A stretch of DNA of 64,000 nucleotides. It comes from a virus. The notes beneath the pieces were generated by a model. It ran no database searches. It had not been told where the DNA came from and saw only the letters and a list, made by a program, of their open reading frames with translations. Made by a program: the position numbers and the translations under genes. Location of the stretch: the IMG/VR virus record IMGVR_UViG_3300032177_000010, positions 1 to 64,000 of that record. One strand, given 5' to 3'. The first letter of the stretch is position 1. Each line of letters opens with the position of its first letter. Below are positions 52,057-52,430 of the stretch, in pieces.

Positions 52057-52191
52057 TTAGGGAGAATTTAGGCGTATCAGTCTTTATATATAACTTCACC
52101 CTAACAAGTAAGGTGATAGGATTCGAACCTATAATCTCAAAAGTATTAATTCTGTGTTTTACCGAAGTAACTGATACTGTCACTACCCTAA
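52057..52191 (-). ncRNA. Y-like RNA D with tRNA-like domain
   Basis: Closing stem TTAGGG/CCCTAA, GGTAGTG facing GCCTAAATTCTCC, second stem GTATCAG/CTGATAC, then TTACTTCGG. The interior has a T-arm mimic (ATAGG-TTCGAAT-CCTAT) followed by an acceptor-like hairpin CACCTT/AGGGTG with a short loop, in the order expected of a tRNA opened at its anticodon. The D-arm part is weaker than in copy C. Confidence 0.78.
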
Positions 52192-52207
52192 CAAAACGTT
52201 AGGTTTT

Positions 52208-52283
52208 TGGTAGCCCTACGGCGAATCGAACGCCGATTGGCAGAGTGAAAATCTGCTGTCCTAAACCGTTAGACGATAGGGCC
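52208..52283 (-). tRNA. tRNA-Glu(TTC)
   Basis: Acceptor GGCCCTA/TAGGGCT, anticodon arm CAGA-TTTTCAC-TCTG, T arm CGGCG-TTCGATT-CGCCG, discriminator A, encoded CCA. It is wedged between Y-like RNAs C and D, with only four bases between its 5' end and RNA C. Confidence 0.93.
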
Positions 52284-52287
52284 AAAT

Positions 52288-52430
52288 TATTAGGAGAAAA
52301 GATCGCATAGACCCTCTGTACTGGTGCTTTAACATTAAGCTACTCTCAACTGATTAGAGAAGAGAGGGAGGAATTGAACCTCCGATATCCCGTTCCCAAG
52401 CGAAGTATGTCTATACTGCACTACCTAATA
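52288..52430 (-). ncRNA. Y-like RNA C with circularly permuted tRNA-like domain (YrlA-like)
   Basis: Closing stem TATTAGG/CCTAATA, GGTAGTG facing TTTTCTCC, second stem TATAGAC/GTCTATG, then TACTTCG. The interior reads, in order: T arm GGAGG-TTCAATT-CCTCC, acceptor-like CTCTC closed onto GAGAG by a loop, and a D-arm-like TAGCTTAATGTTAAAGCA. That is a tRNA cut at the anticodon and closed at the acceptor end, the architecture reported for bacterial YrlA RNAs that pair with Rsr. Confidence 0.85.

Follow-up and report, generated by a model that had tools for sequence, protein, structure and literature searches.

Y RNAs of a phage Ro locus and its relatives carry tRNA-like modules in permuted and un-permuted forms

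Bacterial YrlA RNAs (Rfam RF02553; crystal structure 6CU1) are encoded beside a Ro/Rsr gene and combine a basal Ro-type stem and a large internal loop with an effector in which tRNA-like arms follow one another in the permuted order T-acceptor-D. Circular permutation brings YrlA and tRNA into superposition (PMC11472068). DusA and TruB modify YrlA, and in the RYPER machine a Y RNA holds PNPase on Rsr (both PMC8394870). In Salmonella, the rsr-yrlBA operon carries two Y RNAs (PMC7790460). Phages have such RNAs as well: Y RNAs were reported from mycobacteriophages (Chen 2014, as cited in PMC12282133) and YrlA from several phages (Sim and Wolin 2018, as cited in PMC7765460). As far as the citing papers describe them, these systems pair a phage Ro protein with tRNA-mimicking Y RNAs nearby, as does the locus studied here. 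Short bacterial and animal Y RNAs, which two RNAs of this locus (A and B below) resemble, consist of a single stem, a Ro-type internal loop and a small loop. In the permuted tRNA genes of algae and archaea, the T half precedes the D half and a linker joins the acceptor ends; these genes yield mature decoding tRNAs after circularisation.

We analyzed a window of 64,000 nucleotides from an IMG/VR virus record of 65,134 bases, in which ARAGORN finds 28 tRNA genes. The window encodes a Ro60 orthologue with Pfam matches to TROVE (E=2e-35) and vWA_Ro60 (E=2.5e-6), and its family profile matches the solved structures of D. radiodurans Rsr (2nvo, E=1e-22) and Xenopus Ro (1yvp, E=5e-21). An array of five Y RNAs lies directly downstream on the same minus strand. 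We letter them A to E in order of transcription from the Ro gene, an assignment inferred from coordinates in the initial annotation. On this strand the order is Ro60, A, B, C, tRNA-Glu, D, E, followed by tRNA-Asn and tRNA-Gln (Table 1), and the terminator-like hairpin behind the last two genes possibly marks the end of a Ro-Y RNA-tRNA transcription unit. A search of phage records for DNA near-identical to the window found none. Beyond the Ro gene, two minus-strand open reading frames (54963-57331) resemble, judged by their translations only, adenylosuccinate lyase (54963-56144) and adenylosuccinate synthetase (56129-57331, with a GDEGKGK motif).

Table 1. Features of the Ro locus in window coordinates, listed in minus-strand order.
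Feature	Coordinates	Strand	Basis
Ro60 orthologue, 526 aa, TROVE and vWA domain with VDLSGSM motif	52621..54201	-	Pfam
Y RNA A, short, 75 nt, without tRNA-like part	52542..52616	-	core GTAGTGNAG...TACTTC and both stems; model R1 E=1.2e-6
Y RNA B, short, 84 nt, without tRNA-like part	52444..52527	-	core variant TTCTTC and stems; R1 E=0.0036
Y RNA C, Ro stem - T arm - acceptor hairpin - D arm - Ro stem	52288..52430	-	R1 E=5.9e-18
T arm of C, GGAGG-TTCAATT-CCTCC	52367..52383	-	sequence; covariation
Acceptor-like hairpin of C, CTCTC (52362-52366) / GAGAG (52343-52347), 14-nt loop	52343..52366	-	sequence, fold, covariation
D-arm-like hairpin of C, GCTT-AATGTTA-AAGC	52326..52340	-	sequence, fold, covariation
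tRNA-Glu(TTC) gene, between Y RNAs C and D	52208..52283	-	ARAGORN; Rfam tRNA 57.2 bits
Y RNA D, anticodon-like arm, T arm and acceptor hairpin inside Ro stems	52055..52193	-	R1 E=1.3e-7; covariation
Anticodon-arm-like hairpin of D, CAGAA-TTAATAC-TTTTG, 5 bp/7 nt	52138..52154	-	kept in L010 and L005
T arm of D, ATAGG-TTCGAAT-CCTAT	52116..52132	-	Rfam tRNA match
Acceptor-like hairpin of D, TCACCTTA-CTTGT-TAGGGTGA	52096..52116	-	fold; compensatory changes in homologues
Y RNA E, 121 nt, without recognisable T arm	51920..52040	-	R1 E=8.5e-6
Terminator-like hairpin behind tRNA-Asn and tRNA-Gln	51733..51748	-	consensus scan only

A common core is present in all five Y RNAs. On the 5' side a GGTAGTGNAG-like stretch leads into TACTTC (TTCTTC in B), the 3' element has TTCT at its end, and the RNAs form both a closing and an inner stem. 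In this analysis the core motif TAGTGNAG / TACTTC / TTCT was observed in phage contigs. A pattern search for this Ro-binding core, with both stems required, returned 158 candidate Y RNAs on 79 contigs, a few overlapping or doubtful units included. A covariance model (R1) built from 24 relatives, with the window left out, was run on the whole window and ranked the RNAs in the order C (89.6 bits), D, A, E and B. The matches that followed were pieces of tRNA genes, and no other non-tRNA stretch of the window was convincing. Ten viral loci, 78 to 41% identical in the best segment, were recovered with the Ro protein as query; each of the eight non-redundant loci selected in this way (L003, L005 and L007-L012) has at least one Y RNA with a T arm, an acceptor hairpin and a D arm. 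Contigs chosen for their Y RNAs have a TROVE gene in 34 of 40 cases, and it is from this synteny that we infer Ro binding of the Y RNAs; C and D are likewise predicted to be expressed and to bind Ro.

RNA C contains the T arm, the acceptor-like stem and the D-arm-like hairpin that the initial annotation had placed in this order inside the Ro-binding part. The minimum-free-energy fold agrees, consisting of exactly the T, acceptor and D helices inside two Ro stems, with the dinucleotide TA between the acceptor hairpin and the D-like arm. Since the fold energies are not exceptional for composition (z of -1.4 for C and -1.9 for D), we built the case for both RNAs on arm order and covariation. The three elements appear in C's order in 0.02% of 20,000 dinucleotide shuffles of C. 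All five pairs of the T arm are kept in nearly all of 29 relatives, four of them with compensatory changes, and the core of the T loop (TTCAATT) is retained. The D loop (AATGTTA) has a single G in place of the GG pair found in ordinary tRNAs, which makes an elbow contact between the D and T loops uncertain.

Covariation among homologues supports the same architecture. Given 29 permuted Y RNAs aligned by MAFFT without fitting, RNAalifold recovered the closing, inner, T, acceptor and D helices, with compensatory changes in 26 of 28 pairs. A descriptor requiring the last three of these helices had a part in choosing the 29 RNAs, which makes the eight RNAs from the window and the Ro-selected loci a fairer test; in these, 22 of 27 pairs show compensatory changes. 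Both Ro stems also carry such changes, for C as well as for D. Arms that were not conserved in homologues had been named beforehand as evidence against mimicry; instead, the arms are conserved and compensated.

RNA C is a YrlA-like permuted tRNA mimic, a kind already reported in phages. We file it as YrlA-like on its architecture (an adjoining Ro60 orthologue, a basal stem, internal loop and second stem, and the permuted T-acceptor-D module), yet it falls outside the Rfam model. RF02553 gives a weak local match of 24.1 bits (E=0.011), below a cut-off of 69 that is an annotation threshold and not a biological boundary, and the Ro-binding part of C differs in sequence from that model. The YrlA-like RNAs of two named phages, VanLee (47 bits) and Kikimora (38.8 bits), also score under this cut-off. 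The match with the published YrlA design that had been suggested for this locus thus applies to C, given its arm order, covariation, independent model, adjacent Ro gene and weak RF02553 match, but not to D, which has a different arrangement.

We rejected C and D as ordinary or permuted tRNA genes: ARAGORN calls neither as a tRNA, C has no anticodon arm and the Rfam tRNA match of D is partial. C also differs from permuted tRNA genes in being closed by a Ro-binding stem. A two-piece (permuted) tmRNA was ruled out, since no Rfam tmRNA model matches the window at gathering score; a 9.5-bit match covers the T-arm element only. In Brevundimonas phage Kikimora, a match to permuted tmRNA (L183 6856-7201; RF04321, 57.7 bits, cut-off 47) lies near the Ro gene and tRNAs. 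Near Ro in Streptomyces phages Alone3 (L178 5467-5699) and BRock (L179 5579-5742), matches to the manA RNA motif (47.8 and 49.7 bits, just under the cut-off of 55.2) sit between two tRNA-Lys genes.

RNA D follows a second design. It does repeat the T arm and acceptor-like stem of C, as first described, but that description was incomplete, having missed an anticodon-arm-like hairpin 5 nt upstream of the T arm. Two homologues, L010 6366-6502 and L005 6387-6517, keep the closing and inner stems, the 5-bp/7-nt arm, the T arm and the acceptor hairpin, and they show one compensatory pair in the anticodon-like arm. Across these three homologous RNAs, 98.8% of cells are paired over 28 pairs, of which nine are compensatory; shuffled controls gave 3.4 such pairs, with none of 500 reaching nine, and slid versions gave at most one. 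The anticodon-like arm and T arm occur in this order in 0.09% of shuffles of D. The anticodon loop (TTAATAC) is atypical, with A34 and C38. Behind the acceptor hairpin we found no D arm that would be stable, and any D arm of this RNA is degenerate at best. It is by the anticodon-like arm and the want of a clear D arm that D departs from YrlA. The Rfam tRNA model matches D above its cut-off (52116-52172, 32.3 bits) in linear order, over model positions 9-63 only. We retain this linear-tRNA reading in part and doubt its D arm, because that arm would be made from the Ro motif ACTTC, in competition with the inner Ro stem. The T-arm region is 92% identical over 25 nt to that of the nearby tRNA-Gln gene (repeat family D2). 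Judged from its sequence and that of its homologues, D is a genuine tRNA mimic and not a shortened copy of C.

With respect to the remaining RNAs, A, B and E had been described as lacking the mimic. A and B have no T arm, and in the window neither has E, but the Y RNAs at the place equivalent to E in two relatives (L003 6796-6917 and L005 6518-6655) have a TTCAA-containing, T-loop-like hairpin where E carries the hairpin GCAGG/CCTGC. E may therefore be a decayed T-arm Y RNA. The fold z of B is -3.4. The combination of short and mimic Y RNAs in one phage, which had been pointed out for the window, is real there and recurs to give 18 contigs in all; with rsr-yrlBA of Salmonella as a precedent, it is not new in principle.

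Anticodon arms are common among the phage relatives. We scored an arm when it lay 3-7 nt upstream of the T arm and had a 7-nt loop on a stem of 5 bp, or of four Watson-Crick pairs and a closing pair. By this rule, 36 of 68 distinct T-arm Y RNAs from 43 contigs have one, against 7.5 expected when the upstream stretch is shuffled. Their loops have T33 in 31, a purine at position 37 in 33 and A38 in 30, and U33, R37 and A38 occur together in 25 Y RNAs (0.4 expected). Sorted roughly, 24 of the 68 have the T-acceptor-D order with an anticodon arm and 24 the same order without it, nine have the order D-anticodon-T and 11 no clear order; the D-arm rule used for the T-acceptor-D classes was relaxed and admitted some doubtful cases. 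The idea that such an RNA is a tRNA cut open at the anticodon reflects the published view of YrlA, but many phage relatives keep the anticodon arm and place the Ro arm beside it, at about tRNA position 26. These figures describe phage Y RNAs; among genome contigs, bacterial relatives came from one MAG only. This Actinomycetota contig (JAFGDU010000043, L102) has a Ro gene and two permuted Y RNAs, at 3039 and 3248, and although binned as bacterial it may be a prophage or virus contig.

Some relatives are not permuted at all. In Bacteroides phage crAss001, the spacer behind TROVE gene 96 (gp96) holds two tRNA-like RNAs (L182 5193-5336 and 5447-5588), the first of which scores 46.6 bits against the Rfam tRNA model. 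Both have the ordinary tRNA order, and the Ro-binding hairpin follows the D arm as a fifth arm, its closing stem capped by a short loop. The same design occurs at L039 6702-6829, L108 9007-9131 (-) and L154 3099-3228 (-) and 2410-2552 (-), all on contigs with TROVE, and the fold of the L039 RNA has five arms: acceptor, D, Ro, anticodon and T. The un-permuted forms correspond to the permuted RNAs with their ends moved from the Ro stem to the acceptor. The records examined leave these RNAs, those of crAss001 included, unannotated. The crAss001 TROVE gene is early and transcribed within 10 min (PMC10136315).

In twelve further genomes of the crAss001 group, the second RNA has a nearly constant body, and there are three versions overall of its anticodon and T arms. 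The anticodon stems of the three versions keep five intact base pairs (ATTAT/ATAAT, ATTGT/ACAAT and ATAGT/ACTAT). Three genomes have ATG/CAT instead of CCC/GGG in the Ro closing stem, a change that is compensated. Ro genes of equal length in this group share at least 95% identity with the crAss001 gene. This pattern suggests that anticodon and T arms are exchanged among crAss relatives; as there are three versions only, selection is not proven.

C alone would be another phage YrlA, and the wider set exceeds that. It amounts to one Ro-plus-tRNA fold with ends in several places and often with a full anticodon arm, extending to the cultured gut phage crAss001. The anticodon arms, other permutations and un-permuted forms of the relatives are absent from the Rfam consensus and from the description of YrlA in PMC8394870. 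The descriptions of earlier phage Y RNAs in the citing papers, as far as they go, are without anticodon arms, a D-anticodon-T order, acceptor-ended forms or arm swapping. Set against those descriptions, the anticodon-bearing, differently permuted and un-permuted Ro-bearing tRNA look-alikes appear to be new. The role of phage Ro and its tRNA-mimic Y RNAs becomes testable at the bench, with the prediction that they bind or inhibit tRNA-recognising host enzymes.

We have little doubt about the structure and identity of the phage Y RNAs as read here. In the mechanism we propose, the phage makes a Ro ribonucleoprotein set of a Ro60 ring protein and five Y RNAs with one common Ro-binding stem. The ring would grip the basal stem, and the tRNA-like module of C and D would act as the effector: host tRNA-binding proteins recognising it would either be docked onto Ro or be kept occupied away from real tRNAs. 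That the modules serve one of these two functions seems to us somewhat probable, and we rate docking and decoy as roughly equally likely.

The simplest reading of C would be a docking role like that of YrlA. A more specific alternative is a RYPER-type tether, in which the tRNA-like module would dock PNPase of the host, and that protein specifically, on the Ro ring for the degradation of structured host RNA, the tRNA shape serving only as a handle. D. radiodurans Rsr and its Y RNA are an established case of such a tether (PMC8394870), and one has been put forward for a Listeria phage whose Rsr homologue lies close to regions of high transcription (PMC12282133). As an account of the phage RNAs we consider it possible, though we hold it tentatively, as it leaves unexplained both the U33-R37-A38 anticodon arms in half of the phage T-arm Y RNAs and the swapping of anticodon arms among close crAss relatives.

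These same features make the anticodon-arm RNAs attractive candidates for decoys of anticodon nucleases. Ro-bound Y RNAs would then offer anticodon arms and other tRNA parts to a tRNA-cleaving host defence, shielding host and phage tRNAs. Besides the excess of anticodon arms over chance, several relatives have the Lys anticodons UUU/CUU (L003 6646, L007 6433, L008 6587, L072 1682 and L120 2155), the class of tRNA that PrrC cuts, and the crAss001 group varies the anticodon and T arms while the rest stays nearly constant save for the compensated change in the Ro stem. YrlA has itself been suggested as a possible competitive inhibitor of an anticodon nuclease, although Salmonella YrlA was not cut by the nuclease studied (PMC7790460); a decoy need not be cut. 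Against the decoy reading, an anticodon arm is missing from C, D has an atypical loop and the anticodons of the relatives are diverse, not Lys alone. We give it the same guarded standing as the PNPase tether. Its fullest form is a little more doubtful still: phages would display changeable tRNA look-alikes on Ro as anticodon-nuclease decoys, with the Ro arm near position 26, movable ends (at the basal Ro stem, the acceptor end or the acceptor/D junction) and exchangeable anticodon and T arms.

That the RNAs are instead precursors of working tRNAs, permuted or nested genes freed by RNase P and other nucleases, is improbable. Many Y RNA arrays do sit among tRNA genes, ARAGORN calls eight Y RNA units from the first set of relatives as linear tRNAs inside a Y RNA, and in L060 a Y RNA encloses a tRNA-Leu(CAG)-like RNA with an acceptor stem followed by CCA. 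With introns allowed, ARAGORN also makes many calls on circularised permuted RNAs, though not on C of the window; these had no shuffle control, so we give them no weight. C lacks an anticodon arm, however, and most of the RNAs have no separate acceptor ends or CCA. The surrounding Ro stem is conserved with covariation, and the un-permuted forms hold the Ro arm inside the tRNA body. Chance likeness or decayed tRNA debris in an AT-rich spacer is scarcely credible, being contradicted by covariation in C and D across diverged homologues, by the shuffle tests and by the independent model, even if the near-identity of D's T-arm region with a neighbouring tRNA gene indicates that tRNA pieces may be recruited by recombination.

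Ro/Y RNA loci showed no strict link to RNA repair: among 20 contigs, RtcB, RNA_ligase (Rnl2-like) and Rnl1-like families are found in 2, 6 and 1, respectively, and none is found in the window record. Three relatives have long Y RNAs (L007 5974-6148, L008 6026-6195 and L009 5832-6009) with a conserved non-tRNA insert, GACTCTTAGGAAAGGACTAAGTGACGAATCGGAAGYAAGACGATAAAGCC, which has no gathering-score Rfam match and may represent another type of effector module.
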